Shown one piece after another: positions 12,646-52,467 of a DNA stretch of 55,818 bases (the first letter of the stretch is position 1; each line of letters opens with the position of its first letter). The stretch is from IMG/VR virus record IMGVR_UViG_3300042350_003432, positions 1 to 55,818 of that record; one strand, 5' to 3'. This stretch comes from a virus. Position numbers and translations under genes: made by a program. Under the pieces are notes generated by a model. It was not told the origin of the DNA. It saw only the letters and a list, made by a program, of their open reading frames with translations, and did no database searches.

Positions 12646-13074
12646 ATGGACTTAAGAAACCTAGTAACAGAAGACGAAGCGATCAAGCCTCTAATCAAAA
12701 GAGAATTGCCCTTGATCATTACTTATCATGATCCAGAAGGAGAGAGGCATCAAGACACAGTGATTTCAAAAGTACCTGATGGAGACGGTAAACTATTGAT
12801 TGAACGAAAAATGGCACTTTTGGCCGCCGGCCCTTGGGAGAATTTAAGCCCGCTAGCTAAGTTAAGAATTGAGGCTATAGCCGTTTTAAGCGTGCAACTT
12901 GTGCAGCCCCCCGAATGGTTGAATAAATGGGCGGTGATTGATGATGAACTACTTTTCGATTTAAGGGAGCAACTTGGCAAGCATGCTAATTTATACTTTC
13001 GCTCAAGTGTTGGACAGGGTACGGGCGATTCGGCGGTCTCAAGAGTGGCGATTTATTCAAAAGAACTTGCCTAA
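12646..13074 (+). CDS. tail assembly chaperone, upstream frame (gpG-like)
   Basis: 142-residue acidic, helical protein located between the tube and tape-measure genes, the position of the gpG-type chaperone that coats the tape measure during tail assembly. AGGAG at 12630-12634 precedes the ATG at 12646; the frame is open further upstream to a GTG at 12493 but that part overlaps the divergent promoter. The 3' end overlaps another open frame by about 100 bases, the layout used by tailed phages for a frameshifted G-T fusion. The role is inferred from position and overlap. Confidence 0.6.
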   Translation: MDLRNLVTEDEAIKPLIKRELPLIITYHDPEGERHQDTVISKVPDGDGKLLIERKMALLAAGPWENLSPLAKLRIEAIAVLSVQLVQPPEWLNKWAVIDDELLFDLREQLGKHANLYFRSSVGQGTGDSAVSRVAIYSKELA

Positions 13075-13282
13075 TACATACACTAGATCACAAGTAAACG
13101 TTGTTTATTCGTCCCTGTCAGAAAATGATCAATTTGAATCGTGGCTTTTATCCCTATCTGATGAAGATTATGATAAAATCCAACCTAGATACAAAGTAAA
13201 TCAAGACAAAACCATCAAGCACGAAAACAAGATCGATGATCAGTGGGAACGTGAATTTTGGCAAAAAGAAAAGGGGGAATAG
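12974..13282 (+). CDS. tail assembly chaperone, overlapping downstream frame (gpT-like)
   Basis: Open from 12965 (stop TAA at 12962-12964) to 13282, with possible starts TTG 12974 and ATG 12983. It overlaps the previous gene by about 100 bases and ends one base before the tape measure, exactly where the T part of a G-T frameshift product is found. Relative to the upstream frame it is +1, so a +1 or -2 shift is required; -2 shifts are known from Mu-type tail genes. Acidic with Trp-rich C-terminus (DDQWEREFWQKEKGE). Independent translation is possible: AGGGAG at 12964-12969 precedes the TTG. Confidence 0.5.
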   Translation: MASMLIYTFAQVLDRVRAIRRSQEWRFIQKNLPNTYTRSQVNVVYSSLSENDQFESWLLSLSDEDYDKIQPRYKVNQDKTIKHENKIDDQWEREFWQKEKGE

Positions 13283-14917
13283 ATGGCAACGCAAAGAGTA
13301 GAAATTGTTGTAGATCTCAATGATCAAGCGGCCGTACAAGCCTTGAACACATTTAAAACACAGTTTCAATCAGTATCTAAAGACGCAGAAGACACACAAG
13401 AAAATTTAAAGCGTACACAAGAAACAATTCAAAAGAATGAAGAATATAGAGATTATCTAAGGCAGACAAGAGCACGAAGAGAACAAAGAGAAAGACGCGA
13501 AGAACAGCAGCACCAACAGCAGATGGCAAATGGTCAAACAACAATGATCACGCAGGCCGATCAGGCAAATAGACGACAGGCCCAGATTGAAAAAGAAAGA
13601 GTACAACAGCAACGATTAAACATACTTCAAGGGGCGGGGCGTATACTTACGGCGGGCGTCTCTACAGGTATGAACATTGCTACAAGTTCGGATGCCAGCG
13701 GTATCATTAGCGCATTAAGTAGCGGGGCGGGGCAAGGCGTCAATGCGCTTGGGGGCTTACTTAGTAATTTAGGCATGCAGAAAACCGGTTCTATTGTTCA
13801 GACAGCCGGTTCACTTGTCCCGCTCATTGGTCAAGGTATCTCTCAAGCGATAGGGCAACTCTATTCACGATATACCGAAGTAGCACAGTATGAATTGCCC
13901 AAAATGCTTGCGGGGTATAGGTTTAATGATGCATTTAGAGCAAAAGAAGCGCCTAAACTTGGCGGGGCTTATGGGTATTCTATGGCCGAATCATTGAACA
14001 ATATGAATGCTTATGCTTCCGCTTTTGGTACTAGAAGCGTTGACGCCCTCTCAACAAGTACGATCTTTTCAGATATGAGAAGCGCCGAAATGATGGGCCT
14101 TAACCCCTTAGCGATTCCCCAGTTCGCCGCTTTAGGTGGTATGGGCGGGGCAATGCAAGACGAAAGCGCAATGGCAGGGATTGCCCGCGGCGTTTTACAA
14201 TATGCAAATGATAAAAATATGTTAGGTTCACAGGCTGAAAAGTTACTAGGTGCGATCAATTCAGGAATTCAAGGGATGGCATCTAAGGGGCTTAATGTCA
14301 ATGCTGAAAAATTAACAGATTTTATCATTGGCGTATCGAATGCAGGTATCAAATCAGTACAAGGGGCGGGGGCGGTTCGTGCAATTCAAGGCATTGAGGC
14401 AATCGCGGGGCAGGCAAAGGGCGGATACTTAGGCAATTTTCAAGGTTTAGCAATGCAAGCCCTACAAGCGGAGGCCGCGGCCACAAGTGACGGTTCACCG
14501 CTTGGGATGGTTACTAAGCTTGAAGAGTTTCAAGCGGACCCAAGACAGGCAACAAATATTATCAAAAAGAGACTAGGGCAAACAGTTTCTAAACTTGCTT
14601 TAGGTGGTGCAGGTTTATCACAGGCACAAGTTAGCGCTTTATTCGGTGCAGGTAGTGGCGGACTTGGAACAAGCTTTGATCTTACGGGGCAGATTGGCGA
14701 TCAATTAGATGTCACTAAGAAGCTTAATAAATTAGAACGTGAACGAGTCGAACGCAATTTTGATTATACCAGGACCACAGAGGGGCAAGCTCAATTAGAT
14801 GCATTGTTAAAGATACAACAAGACTTAGAATTGATTATAGAGAATATAGCAACAAGCACACTATCAACAAAATTAATCGAACTTGCAAACACAATTAGCG
14901 ATTACTTTAAACCATAG
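13283..14917 (+). CDS. tape measure protein (short)
   Basis: Sets tail length and is ejected through the tube. N-terminal VVDLNDQAAVQALNTFK is typical of tape-measure openings; residues about 30-115 are a Gln/Arg/Glu-rich predicted coiled coil, followed by a Gly/Ala-rich hydrophobic middle (about 115-200) and a helical C-terminal half. At 544 residues it is short for a myovirus; at about 1.5 angstrom per residue the tail would be roughly 80 nm, an inference from the general length rule. The ATG follows an AAGGGGG ribosome site inside the end of the chaperone frame. Confidence 0.8.
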   Translation: MATQRVEIVVDLNDQAAVQALNTFKTQFQSVSKDAEDTQENLKRTQETIQKNEEYRDYLRQTRARREQRERREEQQHQQQMANGQTTMITQADQANRRQAQIEKERVQQQRLNILQGAGRILTAGVSTGMNIATSSDASGIISALSSGAGQGVNALGGLLSNLGMQKTGSIVQTAGSLVPLIGQGISQAIGQLYSRYTEVAQYELPKMLAGYRFNDAFRAKEAPKLGGAYGYSMAESLNNMNAYASAFGTRSVDALSTSTIFSDMRSAEMMGLNPLAIPQFAALGGMGGAMQDESAMAGIARGVLQYANDKNMLGSQAEKLLGAINSGIQGMASKGLNVNAEKLTDFIIGVSNAGIKSVQGAGAVRAIQGIEAIAGQAKGGYLGNFQGLAMQALQAEAAATSDGSPLGMVTKLEEFQADPRQATNIIKKRLGQTVSKLALGGAGLSQAQVSALFGAGSGGLGTSFDLTGQIGDQLDVTKKLNKLERERVERNFDYTRTTEGQAQLDALLKIQQDLELIIENIATSTLSTKLIELANTISDYFKP

Positions 14918-21557: not shown

Positions 21558-22304
21558 ATGGCAAACCTAGAAATTAGTCCCCTATCAACAACGATCGGTG
21601 ATAATGGTGGATACTTGATTTATGTAATCGGTGACTATTTCACAGATGGCACGATTTCAAATGATCAAGAGATCAAGATCAGGCTTAAGAATACAAGTAC
21701 TCTTGCTTATACACAGTATCTTTATTCATGTATATCAGGGCAGGGCGTAAATTGCCAAGTACAAAGGGGCCAATACGTTTTATGCGCCTCACCTATCCTT
21801 GAACCAGGTATTTATGATCTAGTGTTAACCTACGGCGTACAAAATTACACAGTGAGCGCCGGCATACAGGTTAAACGAAGATTAAGAAGTCTTGAGGCGT
21901 ATGAGCTTCGGGCGTCTTTGCCCCCTCTATATAAGGCCGGCGAACGCATATTAAATCAAGATACATTGTTTGCGTATGGTTCAAGTGATCTTGATCAAAC
22001 AGAACTTAGCAACTTAGCGATTTTGACTTCTTGCATAGGCGACGAATTAACTTATCTAAAGGGCAAATCTAGAACAAGAGTAGCGGAACAAGTCACAATG
22101 CCCTATGAAATCAATTCTAGTGATAATTCACTGATCAAACTAGAAAGTAACTTAGGACTTGAGGCCGGTCAAATTATCTATGTACAGGGCATTAAATGCG
22201 TAGTCAATAGCATTGCAGGCCACGCCGTCTATATTCAAACACAACAACCCTTTTCAATCGTACAACAGGGGGCAGAGATTACATATGCTACTATCACAAA
22301 TTGA
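21558..22304 (+). CDS. hypothetical virion protein, beta-rich N-terminus
   Basis: 248 residues. Residues 1-105 look like an Ig/IPT-type domain (ISPLSTTIGDNGGYLIYVIG..., strands and turns ending in VSAGIQVKRRL); the C-terminal half mixes a helix with strands (LGLEAGQIIYVQGIKCVVNS). GGAG lies 8 bases before the start. It sits between two tail-tip genes and its 3' end overlaps the next gene, so it is likely part of the virion tail; specific function unknown. Confidence 0.45.
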   Translation: MANLEISPLSTTIGDNGGYLIYVIGDYFTDGTISNDQEIKIRLKNTSTLAYTQYLYSCISGQGVNCQVQRGQYVLCASPILEPGIYDLVLTYGVQNYTVSAGIQVKRRLRSLEAYELRASLPPLYKAGERILNQDTLFAYGSSDLDQTELSNLAILTSCIGDELTYLKGKSRTRVAEQVTMPYEINSSDNSLIKLESNLGLEAGQIIYVQGIKCVVNSIAGHAVYIQTQQPFSIVQQGAEITYATITN

Positions 22305-23199
22305 CAAGGCCCGACATTCTACGATCTTCACTAGGGCGACCACGACCGATCTAGATAGACTAAGTTTTTTTTATGATCTAGTCCGCCCCGCATCGTTCCC
22401 TCGTGCATATTGGGCAAAGGTGATGCAATCCATTATCTACCAGCCAAAAGGCACTTATGCACAGCTATTCAATGTTCTCTATTGGCTATTCAAACCATGG
22501 ACCGATCAAGAGACTTATGAAAATGTGACAATTAGCACCGATGGGCGTTTTGTACTACCTACCGGCGATCTGTCTGATGGTAGAGTACATAAATTGCTAA
22601 GATGCACCTTTAGCGATGGTTCAGTAAAAATTTACATGGTTTATCAAATACATGAAACAGGGACGCCCCCGATCGTGGTTCGTAGGTATCAATTGTTTAC
22701 TGATCAAACATTTGCCAGTAATTCAATGTTTTCAGTGTATACACGCGGGCAAAATGTGACAGTGAGCACGATGGAATTTTTACCATTCTTAATCTTTGAG
22801 ACTACAGGCGGGGGCCTTGGGAATGTAAATGCCTTAGATGATCTAAGAAATGGTAAGCTTACAATTTACCTTGATTCTACACTAGCTAAAGCGCCCCCAA
22901 CGTATATGAAAGAAGATAATGAAGAGAGAGACGCCGGCGAACCATTCGGGGGGCAATTACTAGAATTGTTTGATCTTAACCCAGACACAGAGAACTATGG
23001 CGATCAGATCACAGGGCCCTTTCCTCTATATGTAGGAGGTTCACAATTAGAAGGCGTATTTGGTACGATTTTAAATAAATGCATTTCAGCCGGTATCAAG
23101 TACGAACTTGTAAATCAAGATTGGGATACTTCCCTTGACTATCAGTCACTTAGCATCTACGCACAGCAAGGACTTTACCCGTTCCCGCCTAAAATTTAG
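22285..23199 (+). CDS. tail-associated protein (gpI-like position)
   Basis: 304-residue protein, last of the late operon. I chose the ATG at 22285, which overlaps the previous gene by 20 bases; an upstream TTG at 22213 is unlikely. Segment LDRLSFFYDLVRPASFPRAYWAKVM and YAQLFNVLYWLFKPW is an aromatic-rich helical part; the rest is beta-rich. In P2-type order gpI follows gpJ, but similarity to gpI is not clear by eye. The stop codon TAG overlaps the first iteron of the following R1 region. Confidence 0.4.
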   Translation: MLLSQIDKARHSTIFTRATTTDLDRLSFFYDLVRPASFPRAYWAKVMQSIIYQPKGTYAQLFNVLYWLFKPWTDQETYENVTISTDGRFVLPTGDLSDGRVHKLLRCTFSDGSVKIYMVYQIHETGTPPIVVRRYQLFTDQTFASNSMFSVYTRGQNVTVSTMEFLPFLIFETTGGGLGNVNALDDLRNGKLTIYLDSTLAKAPPTYMKEDNEERDAGEPFGGQLLELFDLNPDTENYGDQITGPFPLYVGGSQLEGVFGTILNKCISAGIKYELVNQDWDTSLDYQSLSIYAQQGLYPFPPKI

Positions 23200-23442
23200 T
23201 TAAGATACTTGATCATAGTTAAGATGTTTCTTGTATATCGTAACTAGAAAATCTTGTTATGTTTCAACAATTTACCAAGATAATTAAGATAATTAAGATA
23301 TTTTGAAGAGTAGTATAATATTAAAAATAAAATATATGTACATGATGTATATGTGATTTATATATATAGGGGCTATCGGGCCAATAATTATCTAATCATC
23401 TATGTAAATCATTGATTTATAACAATATTCTCTAGTTAAGAT
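23198..23442. repeat. R1: iteron and inverted-repeat region, candidate replication origin
   Basis: Non-coding stretch from 23200 to 23536. It contains AGTTAAGAT at 23198 and 23217 (19-bp period), then TAACTAGAAAATCTTGTTAT (23241-23260), then ATTAAGAT at 23283 and 23292 (9-bp period), an AT-rich core (about 23300-23410, with ATATGTACAT), then the inverted arm ATAACAATATTCTCTAGTTA (23419-23438, 18 of 20 bases complementary) and AGTTAAGAT at 23434. The same plan is found at 51541-51799. It lies just before the primase-helicase gene, typical of a replication origin; an operator region is the alternative. Confidence 0.65.
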
Positions 23443-23473: not shown

Positions 23474-23502
23474 TTGACAAATCACACTTTTTTCTCTATT
23501 TT
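23474..23502 (+). promoter_or_regulatory. promoter of replication module, TTGACA-17-TATTTT
   Basis: TTGACA (23474-23479), 17 bases, TATTTT (23497-23502). It lies 35 bases upstream of the primase-helicase start and just downstream of the last R1 iteron, so a protein bound at R1 could influence it. The -35 is exact and the -10 moderate. Confidence 0.6.
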
Positions 23503-23536: not shown

Positions 23537-26500
23537 ATGAACGAAGCAAAAGGCAAGTTCTATCCTCATCTATCCAGTGAAGTTTTGAATCAGTGGTATA
23601 ATGAACCCTTATTCTGTTCCATTTTGCCTAATCTCAAAGTTAAAGCGGGCCAGTATACAAACCCCGCCGTTTTTCATGTAGACTTGAAAGATGCACTTAG
23701 AACACAGTTTAACACAGATGCACAGATGCAACCTGCATACGCATCACAACTTGTTAAAGCAACAGCACAAACTTGGAGACTTGGGACAGAACATATCAAA
23801 GATTTACAAGTACAAATTGATTTTATCGCTTTAGATTTTGATGCAAAGAGGGAAGAGAGTCCACGTGAAAAATGGGCTTGGTCAAATGATGACTTTAGCG
23901 CTTGCGTTATCTCTTGGGCGGCGCATCCTATTCTAGGAAATTCATTGACCTATAAGACAAAACATGGTCTACGCGTTCTAATCCCTCTTGAAGCGCCCTT
24001 TATGATTGATAAAGAGTTACGGGGTAAAGATTGGGAGAAAGTCTATGAATCCATTTTGGCCAGGTTGCCTAAATCATCTTTTGGCGCGTTTGATGTATCT
24101 TGCGACACAGTAGTAAAAACTTATAGATTGCCACAAGTAATTAGAGAAAAAGAATACTTGTACTCTTTTTTCTATGTGCCAGCTAAACAATATGTACATA
24201 AAATTGATATGCTCTCTATGTTCTCTGATATTTCATACATTACAGCACAGAGACAAGCAATCAGGGGCGTAAGTCAAGGCTTAATCGAAGTATTCAAAGA
24301 AAACAAGCTTTATATCGAACCTATGAACAAGCAAATCAACGGCGAATTAGTTCATCGTGTTCAATGCCCTTGGCATGATTTACATTCATCAAACGACGAT
24401 AAAAGCACCGCTAGCGTTCTTTTTCTTGGTGATAATGGTTGGGTTTTCAATTGTATGCATGCATCTTGTAAAACTGAACGAACTAAACCTAATGCGCTTC
24501 GGAACAAGTTCCCTAGAGGTTGGAGTGATTTTGTTCAAGATGGTTTTGAATATGAGTTTAACAGCATAGACGGGCAAGAGATTATTAGAAACTTAGTAGA
24601 AGTTCTAAAATCATCTAAAGAAGCGCCCTTTTATCAAAGAGGGAATGAAATTGTTCGTGTAAAAATGAACTTAGAAATTGATAGAGAGACTATCTACACG
24701 CCAAGCGTAGAAGAAATTACGGGGTACATTTTACAGTTTTCTAGATGGTACACAGTAAAGACAACAAAAGAAGGTTTGACACGAAATTACATAGCTTTAC
24801 AAGTAGCCACGATCAAAATTTACTATGCATATATCAAAGACATGTTGCCACGTATTGAGGGCGTGACTAGCATCCCCCCGATCAATAGCGCATTTGAACC
24901 ATTGCAAACACATAAGGGCTATTGTGAGGCCCAAGCATGCTTTTATTCACCTGTACGCCATTTCAATTTTAAGGCGTTGCAAGATATACCATCTAGCACT
25001 CAAGCAGCGAAAGATGCAGCACTTAGACTACTTGATCTATTTTGCGATTTCCCATTTGCGCAGGACCATTATAGACTTATGGCACTAGCTACACTATTCA
25101 CAGCCGGTTTCCGTAAGAAGATTGACGCCCCCGCCCCTTTGTTTCTAGTATCCGCAAACACTAAGGCCGCCGGTAAAACTACCTTTATTCAGACCGCTTT
25201 GGCCGGCGTGTATGGTATCCGCCAGCCTTCAATCATGGCAACACCAGAAAAACAAGAAGAACTTGAGAAACAATTAAATACAATGCTCTTAGAAGGTGAA
25301 GATTTCATTGTACTTGATAATATTACACAGGCCCTCGGTTCAGGTAGTATCGATGCGATCTTAACAAGTTCAGTTTATAAAACTCGTATTCTTGGCAAAA
25401 GTCACATGCCAACAATTAAGATTAGATCATTCTTTGCGGGCACTTCTAACAATGCAGTTATGAAAGCGGATACAGATAGACGCGTAATTACTGTTCGCCT
25501 TGTATCTGATTTAGATAGACCAGATGAACGAAGAGACTTTAAACATAGAGATATCTTGACTTTTGCGTCTCAAAATACAAGTTCTATTTGGCGTGATATG
25601 CTCACCATTCAAAAGAGCTTTCAGGAATTGGCAGACGTAGAAGAGTTATCAAAAGAACTTTCATCAATGGGAAGTTTCACAGAATGGGCGGATTGGGTTC
25701 AATATCCTGTCGCATGGGTGGGCAAGTTACTAGGTTTCATGAATGTTGATATTGTTGAAATGTCACGATCTGAAATTGTATCAAGAGAAAACGATGATCT
25801 AAATACAATATTTCAAGGCCTATACAGTTATCAAAGAGATTTAGGGGCGGGCGTTCAATGGAATGCACCAGACTTGTACACAGCCTTAAAAAATAAGCAT
25901 TCAGAAGATGAATACTTAGAACCTTTACAAGATGCACTACTTCAAGGCATCTCTTTAAGCGTTGTTAATTTAGGCCGTAGATTGATGAGATACAAAGATA
26001 AAGTATGTAACGGGTATAAACTACAATACTACAGATTAGCAGGTAATAAGAGTGTATACTCTTTAGTACGTATTACACCACCTACCGAACGAAAAGATTT
26101 TACACCAGAACAAACGTATCAAGATCATTTAAATACACAAGAAGCGCCAAAAGAAACAAATCAACCTATCAATCAAGTAACAAGTAGCGTGAATACAAGT
26201 ACTACAACAATTGAAAGTATTTTGTCACTTTGTGGGCATAAGGAAGATGCAGACAAGAAGCAGCCTTGTAAATTCATTCAAAAGGGCAATGTTTGCGCGC
26301 TAAATGATGGTGAACCTTGCGAAGCATCTTTTGTGTATCAGGTTGAAGAACCTAAAAAGAAAGAAGAGACCAAAGAAGCATTGTTCGAACTTGAGACCAT
26401 TGACACATTCAAGCAAATATGCACAGAAGCCTTGAAACAAAGATTAACTACGTTACTGAATGATCTAAAGAAGCCCGCTGAAATCGTGGATATCTTGAAT

Positions 26501-26884
26501 AAAGAAGGATTCGCCGTAGACAAGGGCAAATGGTCAAGTATCAAGGTAAATAAAGCAATCGAATTCTTTAGATTGACACAAAAGAAGATCACCGGCGCCG
26601 AACAGAAACTTGAAAAAAGGGGCGTGTATGATCATCGTTGGCTTGCGGGGTATCCAACAACCAGGATTTCACAAGAAGAATATTTATCTAAGCATTCAGA
26701 AGGTTTACCGATTGGCGGCGTAACATGTGGATCAAGTACAGATAGAAAGAGTGTACTATTTACCGGCGCTTCCCTTATTCAAAGCGTGCTAGGCGTAACA
26801 CAGATCAAAGATGCTATCGCTAAGGCGACCACGCCCGAACAAAGAGAGCAGGCAGCAAAAGAGAAATATGGTGATAAAGAATAA
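23537..26884 (+). CDS. DNA primase-helicase (AEP primase, zinc finger, SF3/D5-like ATPase)
   Basis: 1115-residue replication protein that would make primers and unwind DNA. Residues 1-260: archaeo-eukaryotic (prim-pol) primase fold with the metal-binding Asp100-x-Asp102 (IALDFDAK) and HGLRVLIPL. Residues 277-311: zinc site Cys277-x2-His280 and Cys306-x4-Cys311. Residues about 535-720: AAA-type helicase with Walker A ANTKAAGKTT (Gly546-Lys547-Thr548), Walker B EDFIVLDN and sensor FAGTSNN. The C-terminus has a cluster of Cys (CGHKEDADKKQPC...) of unknown role. It begins the replication operon and its stop overlaps the next start (TAATG). Confidence 0.9.
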   Translation: MNEAKGKFYPHLSSEVLNQWYNEPLFCSILPNLKVKAGQYTNPAVFHVDLKDALRTQFNTDAQMQPAYASQLVKATAQTWRLGTEHIKDLQVQIDFIALDFDAKREESPREKWAWSNDDFSACVISWAAHPILGNSLTYKTKHGLRVLIPLEAPFMIDKELRGKDWEKVYESILARLPKSSFGAFDVSCDTVVKTYRLPQVIREKEYLYSFFYVPAKQYVHKIDMLSMFSDISYITAQRQAIRGVSQGLIEVFKENKLYIEPMNKQINGELVHRVQCPWHDLHSSNDDKSTASVLFLGDNGWVFNCMHASCKTERTKPNALRNKFPRGWSDFVQDGFEYEFNSIDGQEIIRNLVEVLKSSKEAPFYQRGNEIVRVKMNLEIDRETIYTPSVEEITGYILQFSRWYTVKTTKEGLTRNYIALQVATIKIYYAYIKDMLPRIEGVTSIPPINSAFEPLQTHKGYCEAQACFYSPVRHFNFKALQDIPSSTQAAKDAALRLLDLFCDFPFAQDHYRLMALATLFTAGFRKKIDAPAPLFLVSANTKAAGKTTFIQTALAGVYGIRQPSIMATPEKQEELEKQLNTMLLEGEDFIVLDNITQALGSGSIDAILTSSVYKTRILGKSHMPTIKIRSFFAGTSNNAVMKADTDRRVITVRLVSDLDRPDERRDFKHRDILTFASQNTSSIWRDMLTIQKSFQELADVEELSKELSSMGSFTEWADWVQYPVAWVGKLLGFMNVDIVEMSRSEIVSRENDDLNTIFQGLYSYQRDLGAGVQWNAPDLYTALKNKHSEDEYLEPLQDALLQGISLSVVNLGRRLMRYKDKVCNGYKLQYYRLAGNKSVYSLVRITPPTERKDFTPEQTYQDHLNTQEAPKETNQPINQVTSSVNTSTTTIESILSLCGHKEDADKKQPCKFIQKGNVCALNDGEPCEASFVYQVEEPKKKEETKEALFELETIDTFKQICTEALKQRLTTLLNDLKKPAEIVDILNKEGFAVDKGKWSSIKVNKAIEFFRLTQKKITGAEQKLEKRGVYDHRWLAGYPTTRISQEEYLSKHSEGLPIGGVTCGSSTDRKSVLFTGASLIQSVLGVTQIKDAIAKATTPEQREQAAKEKYGDKE

Positions 26885-42366: not shown

Positions 42367-43374
42367 ATGAAAACTAATCAAATTTATCATGGTGATTGTC
42401 TTGACCTCATGCCGTCAATTCCCAGTAAATCGGTTGATATGATCCTTTGCGATTTGCCTTATGGAACAACGGCTTGTGAATGGGATTCGATAATTGATAT
42501 GGGTAGACTATGGGAGCAATATGAGAGAGTGATCAAAGATAACGGGAATATCATTTTAACAAGTCAAGGCATGTTCACAGCTAAATTGATGGTTTACAAA
42601 GAGGCATGGTTTAATCACGATTATGTATGGATTAAGAACATCCAATCTAATTTTGCTTTAACAGGATACCAACCGCATAGAATATTTGAAAATGTTTTAG
42701 TGTTTAGACCACCTAGAAAAGAAGATTTAAATATTCAATTCAATTTAGAGCTTCGTACTTATTCTCATAAGATATTATCTTTTATCAATATGCCAAGTAA
42801 AAAGATTTGTGAGAAATTGGGCAATAGGAAAGCAGAACACTTCTTTTACTATAACAGCTCACAATTTGGATTGTGTACAAAAGAAACATATCAAGAGTTG
42901 ATCGAGCATTTCAAGATTGACCAGATGCAGGGCTTTTTGAATTATGAAACTTTGCAATCTATGAATCCCCCTTTCACTTTTAACTTTGATGATCGTATTA
43001 AAAGTACAAAGCAAAAAATAAAAGCTAATTTTGACATAAGAATGTACGGTGATACTAATAAAAAAGAAACAAGATATGTAGAAAAAGCATACGAAAATTA
43101 TCCAAGAAATACATTATATTTTGATCGAGAAATAGGATTACACCCAACACAGAAACCGGTATCCCTGTTTGAATATTTAATAAGAACCTACAGCAATGAA
43201 AATGAAGTAGTCTTAGATAATTGCAGCGGTTCAGGGACTACAGCGATAGCGTGTTTAAATAGTAATAGGCAATATATTTGCATAGAAAAAGATGAAGCAT
43301 ACTACAAGAAATCACTTGAACGCGTAGCAAATCATGAACCTCTTTTAAATTTACAAAATATCAATGAAAACTAA
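42367..43374 (+). CDS. DNA methyltransferase, beta class (N6-adenine/N4-cytosine)
   Basis: 335 residues. Catalytic motif IV DLPY (29-32, in place of DPPY) comes first and motif I-like DNCSGSGTTA (about 284-293) last, the order of the beta class. HPTQKP precedes motif I as in M.type DNA methylases. The middle (about 100-270) is the target-recognition part. No neighbouring endonuclease gene. It follows the clamp by 24 bases. Confidence 0.85.
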   Translation: MKTNQIYHGDCLDLMPSIPSKSVDMILCDLPYGTTACEWDSIIDMGRLWEQYERVIKDNGNIILTSQGMFTAKLMVYKEAWFNHDYVWIKNIQSNFALTGYQPHRIFENVLVFRPPRKEDLNIQFNLELRTYSHKILSFINMPSKKICEKLGNRKAEHFFYYNSSQFGLCTKETYQELIEHFKIDQMQGFLNYETLQSMNPPFTFNFDDRIKSTKQKIKANFDIRMYGDTNKKETRYVEKAYENYPRNTLYFDREIGLHPTQKPVSLFEYLIRTYSNENEVVLDNCSGSGTTAIACLNSNRQYICIEKDEAYYKKSLERVANHEPLLNLQNINEN

Positions 43375-43475
43375 GAAAGAAAAATAAAAAGTTCTTTGTT
43401 TATCATGCGACTCATTTTGAAAGAAAGTGAGGACTAGACGGGCGAACCTTTAAAAAGTTATTAGGGAGATACAGG

Positions 43476-43883
43476 ATGCAAAAAGAAATGAGCAATGATT
43501 TACAAAGAACACTGATGATTGAAGAGATGATGGAACGGGGCGAAGTTTACGAAGGTTATCGGGAAAATCAAAAGTTCATACTTGAACATAAGCGATTTTA
43601 CAACAAATGCACAAAAGAACGCTTTCTAAGTGAGTTCTCTTACGATTTAACTTGGGGCGAAATTGCTTTAAAACTTGGAATTAGTAAATATTCCGCCCGC
43701 GAACTTGGGATTTATTATGGTATCCATAAGAAACAAAAGAACAAGAATAGAACTGTGACAGATGCACAACTTATAGAAGCATTCAAAGAGTATCCACGTA
43801 AAGCAATCAAAGAGATCAAGGATGATTTGAAATTAAGCTTCTCTACTGTTTGGCGAAGAGCAAAAGAACTAGGCCTACTATGA
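43476..43883 (+). CDS. HTH DNA-binding protein
   Basis: 135-residue protein with two predicted helix-turn-helix segments: LTWGEIALKLGISKYSAREL (about 58-77) and KEIKDDLKLSFSTVWRRAKE (about 112-131). Acidic/basic alternation fits a small transcription factor. A GGGAGATACAGG ribosome site precedes the ATG. The gap of about 100 bases before it holds no convincing promoter. It is the last gene of the + strand group, converging with the reductase gene; a regulator of phage genes is possible. Confidence 0.55.
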   Translation: MQKEMSNDLQRTLMIEEMMERGEVYEGYRENQKFILEHKRFYNKCTKERFLSEFSYDLTWGEIALKLGISKYSARELGIYYGIHKKQKNKNRTVTDAQLIEAFKEYPRKAIKEIKDDLKLSFSTVWRRAKELGLL

Positions 43884-43935
43884 TCAATGATATAGAGAAA
43901 CTAAGCGCCTTATTATATAAGAATTTAGCTACTTT

Positions 43936-46527
43936 TTAAATGATACAAGCGCCGCCCGCACATGCCAGCTCTTGGGCCTGTGTTGTCTCATCTGTGCCCT
44001 CTAAAACGCTATCAAAGTCAACCGCATTGCTTGATCTAAGAGATACCCATAAATCGAATGCTTCCGCCCGTTCTTGCTTCTTTTGGCGTGCTCTCTCTAA
44101 GTCTTGTTCTAGTGTAGTTTTTGAATTGTGTTCTTTGTATGCATGTTCAAGCTGTTCAACCTCATCAAAGTACATGTTCTGATTCTCTATGTGATCATAT
44201 ACCGCTTTGAATGGGGGTTGTTGGTAGTCATAATCGCCGCTCATGCTTAGGAATGATACACCGCAAAAATACTCTTGATTATCAAAGACAAATTCGCCCG
44301 CCTGTTCCCATTCGTTAGGGCGTACGTTGCAAGTATTTGAAACATTATGATCAGAACCTTCAAGGGATTTAGGGCGTGCGTTGCCATTCTTTACCCATGA
44401 ATTATAGACCATCTTAACAAGTGATAAGAATTCTGTTGCTTTGAGATCGTTTTTAAACACGTTTTCGGGGTTGCATTCTACAGCGAAGATCAAACATTTA
44501 TCAGTTCCATTCGCCGCCCATACACTGTTTTTCACCGCTTGGGGGTTAAGTTCCTCAAACTTTTGAACAAGTGCGGAATCGGCGGGAACTTGTACATGTC
44601 TTAGAAACCGGCGGGCGTGTTCGGGGTGAATGCCAGACGCACAGCCCAAAATTACGGAAGCGGTCCCGCTAGGTTTTACACATGTAATTCTAGCCGCCGG
44701 TTTGATACCTATTTTCTTTGAAAATTGCTTATTGATTACGATTGCAAATTCAGCAAGCGACTTGAGCAAAAATGATGCCCGATCTTCTTCATGCTTGAAA
44801 AAGAAAGCGGAATTGGCTAGACCGGTCAACGATACCCCTAACAATGCTTCACGCTCTACAATTTGCTCACTTACAGGGCCTAAGTAGTCTGATTTAGTAT
44901 AACTTGCTTGCAATGTGCCAAGTTTTACAGCGTTCTTAACAGCTATGTAAAACGCATCAATAGAATCAATAGAGAAATCTTTAAATTTGGATGCATTAAC
45001 TTCTGTTAAATTGCACGCTTGCCAGCCGCTCTCAAATGTGTATCCTTGATCTTCGTATTTGGTTCTATTTTCGGGGTTGATAAGATCAAGTGTATATTCG
45101 TCAACAATGTGGCCCGCATTGTCTTTGATGAGCATAGGACACATAGAAATTTCTACGCAATTATGAACAACAACACCATTCGCAATAAAACTATGCGTTT
45201 TGTTTTCTGTGAGATCATAAACTTCTTCTTTAGCAACAAAATCAAAAGAGACTACGGCGGAAACATCAACATTTGAAACATTATCATCTAAGACAACATG
45301 CACAAGATCACCAGGCAACAAATCGCCCGCTTCAATCCAGCCTTTAGAAGTCATGATTTGATGGTTTTTAGTACATTCTACAAAGTATCCATTTTCTAAG
45401 GTTAATTTGTACACGTCTTGAATACCGGTAGAAAATACGCCCTTATCTGTGCTTTCTGAATAAGTCCCTTGCTTAAATCGTGGGTCAATTCGTAAAGATG
45501 TTTTTTGTTTTGCGTCAAATAGTTGCTTGGCTGTCTTGTACCCCTCAGCGGTCAAGATTTTTGTTCTACCACTAACGCATGGATTGAAACAGAACTCTGT
45601 TGACTCGGTAAACACGAATCCAGGTTCGCCCCATTGTGGCACATTGTCTAGGAATTTCTTCATGAAATCTTGTTTGTCAAGTTTATTTTTCAAGGCTACC
45701 GCTGAAATATTGGCCCTTGCTCTATATGGTGCATCTTTCCACCAATTCCCAGTTTTAGCGGTCCACATGTCCGAATCATCCATGCTGAAAATTGCAATGG
45801 TTGCACTTCTACGCACGCCACCAGATAACACACAATCAGACGCAACGCACACGATATCAAGGCAATCAATACTACGTAGAGTCATGCCCGCCCTTGAGAC
45901 AAGTATCTTTTCAATCATTTGTAAACTGAATTTGAGAGGCACGGGCCCGGGCGCTTTACCACCATGAGACAAAGGGGCGCCTTTCTTTCTAATCAGTGAA
46001 TAATTGAAGATGGGCATGGTATCAGATTGACCAAGATAGAACTGAATAAGGGCATCAAGCGCATCAGCCCAGCCCTCAATCGTATCTTTGATCATGAGGA
46101 TCCTCATTTGTGCGTTGTTAATTTGATCAGATGAGATCACAGGGGGCAACTTTGAAACGTGGTGCTTTTGTACAGAATAACCCACGCCACAGCCACACAG
46201 AAGAAGCCATAGTGACTCCGCAAAGAAGCGGGGGCGGTCACAAAATGAAGTAGTACAATTGAAAATGCGCCAAGGCTTATCAAGTATCGCCTTGCCCCCA
46301 AATTGCAATGATCTTTGAGAACCTAGAATATCTTTACGCTTTAGTGAATCTTCGATCTCGTTCAAATCCTCAAAGATTTCAATGTTATCAATGAACTTTG
46401 AGGCGTGCATATTCATAAGCCTATCTACAGACTCGCCCCAGTTCTCACGCCGTCTCTTAGATGGTAGATACTTTGCGTAGGTTTGTTTAAATGTGAAATT
46501 GGCAAGGTTGCTGCGTTGAATATCCAT
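43936..46527 (-). CDS. adenosylcobalamin-dependent (class II) ribonucleotide reductase, intein-containing precursor
   Basis: Makes deoxynucleotides from ribonucleoside triphosphates using adenosylcobalamin. The monomeric RTPR layout is clear: NCTTSFC with Cys91, GVRRSATIAIF, the catalytic loop Asn-Pro-Cys-x-Glu, a second active-site Cys (Cys505 in QACNL), and a C-terminal redox pair Cys856-x4-Cys861 (CAGGAC). The reading frame is interrupted after Asn315-Pro316 by a 140-residue intein (residues 317-456); Cys457 is both the first extein residue and the radical Cys, and Glu459 follows. The spliced protein has 723 residues, near the 739 of Lactobacillus RTPR. I start at 46527 because GGAG lies 9 bases upstream; ATG 46542 overlaps it. 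Confidence 0.92.
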   Translation of the reverse strand: MDIQRSNLANFTFKQTYAKYLPSKRRRENWGESVDRLMNMHASKFIDNIEIFEDLNEIEDSLKRKDILGSQRSLQFGGKAILDKPWRIFNCTTSFCDRPRFFAESLWLLLCGCGVGYSVQKHHVSKLPPVISSDQINNAQMRILMIKDTIEGWADALDALIQFYLGQSDTMPIFNYSLIRKKGAPLSHGGKAPGPVPLKFSLQMIEKILVSRAGMTLRSIDCLDIVCVASDCVLSGGVRRSATIAIFSMDDSDMWTAKTGNWWKDAPYRARANISAVALKNKLDKQDFMKKFLDNVPQWGEPGFVFTESTEFCFNPCVSGRTKILTAEGYKTAKQLFDAKQKTSLRIDPRFKQGTYSESTDKGVFSTGIQDVYKLTLENGYFVECTKNHQIMTSKGWIEAGDLLPGDLVHVVLDDNVSNVDVSAVVSFDFVAKEEVYDLTENKTHSFIANGVVVHNCVEISMCPMLIKDNAGHIVDEYTLDLINPENRTKYEDQGYTFESGWQACNLTEVNASKFKDFSIDSIDAFYIAVKNAVKLGTLQASYTKSDYLGPVSEQIVEREALLGVSLTGLANSAFFFKHEEDRASFLLKSLAEFAIVINKQFSKKIGIKPAARITCVKPSGTASVILGCASGIHPEHARRFLRHVQVPADSALVQKFEELNPQAVKNSVWAANGTDKCLIFAVECNPENVFKNDLKATEFLSLVKMVYNSWVKNGNARPKSLEGSDHNVSNTCNVRPNEWEQAGEFVFDNQEYFCGVSFLSMSGDYDYQQPPFKAVYDHIENQNMYFDEVEQLEHAYKEHNSKTTLEQDLERARQKKQERAEAFDLWVSLRSSNAVDFDSVLEGTDETTQAQELACAGGACII
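45160..45579 (-). other. mini-intein in ribonucleotide reductase
   Basis: 140-residue protein-splicing element. It starts with Cys1 (CVSGRTKILTAEGY, block A), has block B TKNHQIM with the conserved Thr-x2-His, block F VYDLTENKTHSFIANGVVVHN ending His-Asn, and Cys as the following +1 residue; all catalytic residues of a class 1 intein are present. It is too short to hold a homing endonuclease and no such motif (LAGLIDADG) is seen. Excision should restore the active-site sequence Asn-Pro-Cys-Val-Glu. Confidence 0.92.
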
Positions 46528-46566
46528 GTTTATTTTCTCCATGGTTTACAGTGATGAAAGTTCTTA

Positions 46567-51540: not shown

Positions 51541-51799
51541 AGTTAAGATCTTGGCTAGTAGTTAAGATCTTAACTGTACATCTTAACTAGAAAATATTGT
51601 TATAGATCAATAAGTTACATAGATGATTAAGATTATTAAGATAGTTTAAGGCTTAATGATAAACTAAAAACACATAAGAAAATAAATTATGTGTTTTGTG
51701 TTTATATATAAGAGTATAGAAAAAATCTTCATTTTCCTTACCATCCTAACAGGGGCGAGTTAAACTATTGATCTATAACAATATTTTCTAGTTAAGATG
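51541..51799. repeat. R2: iteron and inverted-repeat region, candidate replication origin
   Basis: Non-coding stretch 51486-51924. AGTTAAGAT at 51541 and 51560 (19-bp period), the palindrome AGTTAAGATCTTAACT (51560-51575), a third inverted copy at 51580, ATTAAGAT at 51626 and 51635 (9-bp period), a hairpin at 51667-51697, and a 34-bp perfect inverted repeat with arms 51579-51612 and 51766-51799. The last arm ends in AGTTAAGATG. Layout and spacing match R1 at 23198-23442. TTTGGCATACTA at 51816-51827 is a possible -10 region for the small-terminase gene. An origin, a packaging or recombination site, or a shared operator are possible; an origin fits the iterons best. Confidence 0.7.
51667..51697 (+). 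other. 11-bp perfect hairpin inside R2
   Basis: AAAACACATAA (51667-51677), 9-base loop GAAAATAAA, TTATGTGTTTT (51687-51697). It sits in the AT-rich core of R2 without a following T run, so it is not a normal terminator. It could present a single-stranded initiation hairpin. Confidence 0.6.
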
Positions 51800-51924: not shown

Positions 51925-52467
51925 ATGATCGCTAGTGAATATTTTGAGATGCTTAGCGCGTCTGAATGGCAAGTGGCCAATCTAGATACTTTTCTTAGAG
52001 AAGTACAGGGCGGGGCAACCTTGAAGAATGCGGGCATATTAGCCGAGTACACGCCAAAACAGATTAAAAAGATAGAAAGTATCTATGCGCAATTTTGTAA
52101 TGATGAACTAGATGAACCATCGATTGAATTTGTTGTAGGTTTCTATGTATCCAAGGCCGTTGCGTACAGGGATAAACGATGGATAGGATTTGTAGAGGCC
52201 GGCGGCAAACAGGCGAGCGCCGGCATGTGGCTATTAGAAAGACGTGTAGGCGGTGAGTTTGGCGCACCAGTTCAAAAAGTACAGCAAGAGATCAAGGCGG
52301 GCGTTATGTACTCAAGCGTACAAGAGGCAATAGAGGCAACACAAAAGAAGCTTGGTATCAAGCAAATAGAGGAACAGGGCGACTATTGGGCAAAACTACA
52401 AACAGCCGCGGCCCTATCTCAAGAGTTGCCAGTGTTGCCCATAGAGACACCGAACAAAAAAGATTAG
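51925..52467 (+). CDS. probable terminase small subunit
   Basis: 180 residues. An N-terminal helix-turn-helix-like part (FLREVQGGATLKNAGILAEY, about 18-37) is followed by helical oligomerisation sequence and the segment ASAGMWLLERRVGGEFG, which is typical of small terminase proteins (...WLERR....FG) that pass DNA to TerL. It lies just downstream of R2 and about 11 kb from terL on the opposite strand. The call is by motif and size, not certain. Confidence 0.6.
   Translation: MIASEYFEMLSASEWQVANLDTFLREVQGGATLKNAGILAEYTPKQIKKIESIYAQFCNDELDEPSIEFVVGFYVSKAVAYRDKRWIGFVEAGGKQASAGMWLLERRVGGEFGAPVQKVQQEIKAGVMYSSVQEAIEATQKKLGIKQIEEQGDYWAKLQTAAALSQELPVLPIETPNKKD

Follow-up and report, generated by a model that had tools for sequence, protein, structure and literature searches.

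Twin mirror-symmetric iteron arrays as a probable pair of replication origins in a tailed phage

In Bacillus phage SPP1, the two origins oriL and oriR share one organisation and both bind gp38 (PMC6316719). These sites consist of direct repeats and an AT region, and gp38, together with gp39, loads a separate DnaB-type helicase (PMC6316719). In HSV, the origins oriS and oriL are made of inverted sites around an AT-rich spacer, with hairpin formation, and several origins are present per genome (PMC12543377). In origins of the Vibrio phage satellite PLE, iterons differ between close relatives together with the DNA-binding domain of RepA, and origin-targeting nucleases (such as Odn of ICP1) are one possible reason for iteron change (PMC8263062). 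Here we compare with these systems two distant arrays, R1 (23198-23442) and R2 (51541-51798), found in an incomplete virus record of 55,818 nt (hereafter the window, labelled G000 in comparisons of genomes).

Like oriL and oriR, R1 and R2 are two distant sites of like organisation in a single phage genome, with repeats and an AT-rich, presumed unwinding region, one located near replication genes and the other in the late region. As both SPP1 sites are served by one phage protein, SPP1 appears to be the nearest precedent for two like origins with a common phage-encoded reader. In contrast to SPP1, the arrays here have mirror symmetry and arms fixed at 45-50 bp, iteron words are exchanged within the clade, and the helicase gene encodes a primase-helicase; no gp38-, gp39- or gp40-type initiator, loader or DnaB-type helicase was detected with PHROG among the scanned genes of the incomplete genome. 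The inverted binding sites flanking an AT-rich spacer recall HSV oriS and oriL with UL9, although these contain three boxes instead of about 6-12 iterons, their initiator is unrelated (an SF2 helicase), and so is the virus. Similarly, iteron sequence varies between close relatives as in PLE, whereas PLE iterons are semi-palindromic and about 30 bp long, the PLE initiator is of the RepA_N type, and we found no sign of such a nuclease or satellite here. The last comparison is with satellite phage P4, whose alpha protein has iteron targets in both ori and crr, two separate sites. Four relatives of the window phage (G009, G010, G012, and G015) encode a P4-family primase (TIGR01613 match over the curated cut-off), the gene of which lies directly before the array in two of them (G009 and G010), whereas the window's own protein has no match to this family model up to E 1.

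Read from the upstream side, both R1 and R2 start with direct iterons and an inverted outer iteron, followed, after a spacer of 36 bp, by a tandem inner pair, a core, and a mirrored arm that terminates with an outer iteron. In both regions, all elements were located, the outer iteron (- strand) is 45 bp from the inner pair (both + strand), and the members of this pair are spaced by 9 bp. Much of this plan had been proposed in the initial annotation and is confirmed here, namely the AGTTAAGAT pairs 19 bp apart (starts 23198/23217 and 51541/51560), the common left arm AACTAGAAAATNTTGTTAT (starts 23242 and 51585), the ATTAAGAT pairs 9 bp apart (starts 23283/23292 and 51626/51635), and the inverse arms (ends 23442 and 51798). 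The likeness of the two regions is far beyond chance, as their local alignment scores 197, versus a mean of 38 and a maximum of 62 in 500 dinucleotide shuffles. All eight copies of AGTTAAGAT in the window fall inside R1 or R2 (mean 0.77 and maximum 4 in shuffles), as do the four copies of the 19-bp arm (two per region, inverted; 0.18 expected). No third array was found in the window, nor in the near-complete relatives G001 and G002. Thus, the twin arrays are real and well above chance, and they form clusters of multiple short repeats in non-coding DNA, as iteron origins do.

An imperfect long inverted repeat spans each region, with arms of 50 nt at 78% identity in R1 and of 40 nt at 95% in R2; in G001, the R1 arms match at 49 of 50 positions (counted by eye). 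For 18 of the 19 arrays tested, none of 200 shuffles was as mirror-symmetric as the array itself. The right-side inner pair is degenerate in R1 and R2 and clear in relatives. The arms on both sides each contain an IHF-like site, and a TATATA run is found within the AT-rich core of both copies.

R1, a whole symmetric array upstream of the primase-helicase operon, starts with two outer upstream AGTTAAGAT iterons (23198-23225, + strand), the first of which overlaps the preceding gene (22213-23199) at its stop codon. Next come the outer-left inverted iteron ATCGTAACT (23237-23245, - strand, one mismatch), the left spacer (23246-23281, + strand) with an IHF-like site TTTCAACAATTTA at 23262-23274 (1 mismatch), and the inner iteron pair AATTAAGAT AATTAAGAT (23282-23299, + strand). 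The AT-rich core (23300-23377, + strand), presumably the unwinding element, carries TTTATATATATAGGGG at about 23357-23372. The right arm (23378-23433, - strand) is made of the degenerate inner pair and a spacer, in which the IHF-like site AATCAATGATTTA (23405-23417, - strand) has 0 mismatches, and the array ends with the outer-right iteron AGTTAAGAT (23434-23442, + strand). A sigma-70-like promoter, TTGACA-17-TATTTT (23474-23502, + strand), separates R1 from the gene of a divergent primase-helicase of 1115 aa (23537-26884, + strand), which has a C-terminal recombinase-type HTH at about residues 966-1012 (26432-26572, + strand).

R2 is likewise a whole symmetric array, upstream of a terminase-small-like gene. 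Its outer upstream iterons (51541-51575) lie on the + strand at 51541 and 51560 and on the - strand at 51567, and are followed by the outer-left inverted iteron ATCTTAACT (51580-51588, - strand); the inverted iterons at 51567 and 51580 are two more than earlier described. The left spacer (51589-51624, + strand) includes an IHF-like site GATCAATAAGTTA at 51605-51617 (1 mismatch), and the inner iteron pair GATTAAGAT TATTAAGAT (51625-51642, + strand) precedes an AT-rich core with a hairpin and then GTTTATATATAAGAG (51643-51733, + strand). The right arm (51734-51789, - strand) again combines a degenerate inner pair and a spacer, with an IHF-like site at 51761-51773 (- strand, 1 mismatch), and leads to the outer-right iteron AGTTAAGAT (51790-51798, + strand). 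The gene downstream (51925-52467, + strand, 180 aa), which adjoins the array in several relatives, had been annotated as the small-terminase gene. Its product has a W-LERR-G motif conserved in alignment, which we take to be small-terminase-like, and no match in Pfam, PHROG or NCBIfam; the assignment is thus inferred, and we call the gene terminase-small-like. The R2 module also encodes a 224-aa protein with a recombinase-type HTH (PF07508; 54471-55145, + strand).

In R1 and R2 of G000 and G001, the core has an AT content of 0.77-0.82, compared with 0.60-0.61 genome-wide, in keeping with an AT-rich unwinding element. Core AT is as low as 0.48-0.53 in relatives (versus 0.30-0.40 for those genomes), and some GC-rich ones lack a strongly AT-rich core. 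The R2 core hairpin (stems 51667-51677 and 51687-51697) has a z of -4.2, versus 0.45 in R1, and we rejected the hairpin as a universal part of the arrays because it is strong in some of them only. IHF-like sites (WATCAANNNNTTR) occupy like positions in both arms of window-type lineages, and their summed mismatches in spacers amount to 18 over seven lineages, versus 34.1 in shuffled sequences (minimum 27 in 1000), for arms that are related by descent. In the L127, L128, and L131 lineages, IHF-like sites were not significant relative to shuffles. In G000, G001, and G002, the GC skew reaches a local minimum at R2, which coincides with a switch in gene orientation. As skew is not independent of gene direction, and as third-position skew of coding strands gave no independent origin signal, we discarded it as proof of an origin.

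The uncultured phage is myovirus-like: it has baseplate wedge proteins, and its major capsid protein bears a distant resemblance to that of SPO1-type phages. It also encodes DNA polymerase A, an exonuclease, a helicase, several DNA methyltransferases, and a protein that resembles a sliding clamp; one methyltransferase gene (42367-43374) has fragments and extra copies scattered in G001 and G002. An intein-like insertion seems to be present in the ribonucleotide reductase gene (43936-46542, - strand): stretches of a terminase, a helicase, and a head protein, all of them unrelated phage proteins, match residues 322-428, and the homologues in G002 and G003 align over 407 and 325 residues only. The group shows no close isolate in the collection searched (best large-terminase identity about 27%), and among species genomes a related terminase was found only once, on a 3.6-kb contig belonging to a deltaproteobacterial metagenome bin. 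R1 DNA gave only chance-level matches to known phages. Two records retrieved by an exact IMG/VR scan for the iteron pair (L053 and L054) do not align to the window and were set aside as probable chance matches.

Relatives were collected from IMG/VR via the large terminase, the terminase-small-like protein, and the primase-helicase. The two near-complete ones, G001 (67.6 kb, with a 144-bp end overlap) and G002 (65.8 kb), each carry two arrays and no more, at loci that correspond to those of the window. The array plan recurs across a clade of uncultured phages whose large terminases are related, and only one array was found in the examined sequence of the distant ones; two arrays per genome are thus a feature of the window's lineage. 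The iteron word, on the other hand, changes within the clade: it is AGTTAAGAT in G000, G001, and G003, of the AGTGATGAT and AGGGGAGAT types in G002, G024, and G025, TGCATAAGAT in G026, ATGTAGTTA in G006, GTGCAGGAT in G015, GGTGTGTCACTT in G012, AGTTACGA in L127, GGTGTCGAG in L128 and L132, AAGTGGAGTA in L131, and GC-rich in G009, G010, and G034. In L130 (G034; about 1540-1738), two iteron types, GGGGGGCTAG and GGTGGTCGAG, alternate in mirror order around the core. A second inverted array with eight copies of the word GTGACTAG/CTAGTCAC is located directly upstream of the iteron array in L127 (1802-1994). In L128 (1857-2034), L132 (434-632), and L130 (1871-2018), the interval between the array and the terminase-small-like gene contains tandem repeats of about 23-34 bp, the word of which differs from one relative to the next and which may be a packaging or regulatory site.

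Under these changing words, the geometry stays constant. The 14 clade arrays contain 25 outer(-)/inner(+) pairs at 43-50 bp, versus 6.6 expected and a maximum of 15 in 2000 random placements, a count based on words picked from clusters by the analyst and on arrays that share ancestry. The arrays of G010 and L133 have no 43-50 bp pair with the words used. As the right inner pair is degenerate, an automated geometry search with exact 7-mers misses the window arrays, and the geometry claim therefore rests on word-by-word site lists.

If a single protein reads both arrays, R1 and R2 are expected to resemble each other within a genome more than they resemble their orthologues, which is what a comparison of the G000/G001 lineage with the G002 lineage reveals for the inner iterons and the left arm. 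Left spacers are 78-83% identical between R1 and R2 of the same genome and 53-69% identical between orthologues of the two lineages; the corresponding values are 83-94% and 56-83% for inner iterons. The core shows no such within-genome excess (55% between R1 and R2, versus 59-61% between orthologues). Likewise, G032 and G034 have conserved core and spacers, and their left-inner, right-inner, and outer iterons have changed together. Both the R1/R2 likeness in G000, G001, and G002 and the joint change in G032 and G034 would fit a single trans-acting reader, and part of the likeness could stem from local gene conversion between the two arrays.

From these sequence features and the adjacency of the arrays to replication genes, we consider that R1 and R2 are probably a pair of iteron-type replication origins of this tailed phage. 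The initial annotation had hesitated between linked origins and a master operator joining replication and packaging. Symmetry, AT-rich core, clade geometry, and paired evolution best support the former; the latter is weaker because arrays of relatives adjoin genes for a P4-family primase or for dCMP deaminase and VRR-NUC, and because distant relatives have a single array. Alternatively, one of the two arrays might be the true origin, the other being a cis-acting partner of the same initiator (a replication enhancer, or a site for handcuffing or fork arrest). Indeed, R1 and R2 differ mainly in the core and in the hairpin, with inner iterons and left arm staying alike, and the second SPP1 site, oriR, has been proposed to possibly stall forks (PMC6316719). 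However, both arrays exhibit the complete plan, including the AT-rich TATATA core, and neither shows any sequence sign of lost start function, so we view this arrangement as unlikely.

Gene neighbourhoods bear on another possibility, according to which R1 and R2 are operators through which a phage regulator controls the replication operon (R1) and the terminase or late module (R2). Each array precedes a module, a site similar to the promoter downstream of R1 is found in relatives, and small HTH proteins are encoded (the 224-aa protein, and one of 135 aa at 43476-43883). Yet promoter-like sites in the R1 region are not more numerous than in shuffles, and an operator would not need 250 bp of mirror-symmetric repeats around an AT-rich core. 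Furthermore, there is no constant downstream gene: a terminase-small-like gene follows the array in R2, G003, G006, G026, L127, L128, L131, and L132, whereas the array comes after the primase gene in G009 and G010, before VRR-NUC in G009, and between dCMP deaminase and VRR-NUC in G012 and G015 (dCMP deaminase and VRR-NUC were named because their sequences are recognisable, and not through a family search). Such variable neighbours with constant geometry point to a movable cis element such as an origin, instead of the operator of one gene, and make an operator function quite improbable. Serine recombinase genes are also found beside or near the array in G032 and G003 and are absent from the window lineage.

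Packaging sites (pac) are often located near the small-terminase gene, and R2 (perhaps also R1) might be one, recognised by the terminase-small-like protein encoded beside R2. R2-type arrays are indeed located 0.1 to 1.3 kb upstream of terminase-small-like genes in G000, G001, G002, G003, G026, G006, L127, L128, L131, L132, and L133, and the pac site of ICP1 has been suggested to lie near a predicted rolling-circle origin (PMC7145576). However, no terminase gene lies anywhere near R1, whose plan is the same, concatemers would be shortened by cuts at a second pac site, and the G009 and G010 arrays abut a primase gene instead, all of which makes a pac function very improbable. Finally, it is highly unlikely that a serine recombinase or its domesticated DNA-binding derivative uses the arrays as its sites (for dimer resolution or inversion), despite the recombinase-type HTH of the 224-aa protein, the serine recombinase gene divergent from the array in G032 (43116-44474), and the resolvase near R2 in G003 (12957-13778), as a search with the latter found no homologue in G000, G001, and G002, recombination between two direct copies would delete 28 kb, and tandem 9-mers are unlike a resolvase res site.

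If R1 and R2 are origins, which protein reads their iterons? No obvious iteron-binding protein had been recognised initially, but two proteins with a serine-recombinase-type HTH can now be proposed as putative binders, the primase-helicase and the 224-aa protein. The leading candidate initiator is the primase-helicase beside R1, an assignment to which we give about an even chance. With the exception of G006, every array-bearing relative of at least 34 kb encodes a primase-helicase, and the protein of the window lineage is 29-31% identical to those of G031, G032, and G034. Its C-terminal HTH has a conserved KW-S-KV motif, matches PF07508 in the G032 homologue (E 4.6e-4), and aligns with the HTH of the 224-aa protein (hhalign 89.8%). 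The predicted structure of the C-terminal 89 residues has three helices (pLDDT 68, moderate), with a serine recombinase (Bxb1) as a best but non-significant PDB match (E 2.5); the full-length prediction reached a pLDDT of 30 only, and sequence searches of PDB gave no useful relative.

The window protein matches no Pfam or NCBIfam primase model, and profile comparison with P4-type primases yielded a weak N-terminal match only (probability 12%). The G032 primase-helicase, for its part, matches the P4-type primase of G009 (phmmer E 1.6e-5), which suggests that P4-type and window-type helicases are related. The primases of G032 and G034 are 92% identical and have nearly identical HTHs, although their iteron words differ. 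This is contrary to a simple model of covariation between HTH residues and iteron words, and the primase HTH may therefore not set specificity. The second candidate binder, the 224-aa protein, consists of the Recombinase/HTH part, with no resolvase catalytic domain (PF00239) detected. The 135-aa HTH protein is another possible binder; it is present in G000 and G001, which share the same word, and has no homologue in G002, which has another one.

For the origin pair, the following mechanism can be envisaged. A phage-encoded initiator, possibly the primase-helicase, which could also regulate its own promoter via R1, would bind the 9-bp iterons. One folded half-complex would arise on each side of the core, from the inverted outer iteron and the tandem inner pair, which are 45-50 bp apart and separated by a spacer presumably bendable at its IHF-like site. 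The two mirrored half-complexes would then stress and open the AT-rich core, onto which helicases facing both directions could be loaded. R1 and R2 share one orientation, and on the G001 circle the distances between them are about 31 and 37 kb. Two such sites could allow two starts or, alternatively, provide a start and a fork block leading to a switch to concatemer synthesis, as proposed for SPP1. We would also suggest, with considerable doubt, that the origins of this clade combine a fixed mirror geometry with a rapidly replaced word, all iterons of an origin (and of both origins in genomes with two) changing together between close relatives, perhaps under pressure from origin-targeting rivals, and that the co-evolving copies of the window link replication to packaging.

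If R1 and R2 are indeed origins, they would provide a testable origin architecture for a phage group without close isolate in the collection searched. Their word-independent signature (mirrored arms around a core, each with an inverted outer iteron 45-50 bp away from a tandem inner pair) could be used to find origins in metagenomes, and the clade would offer a natural series of word changes to study how initiator specificity shifts under a fixed geometry.
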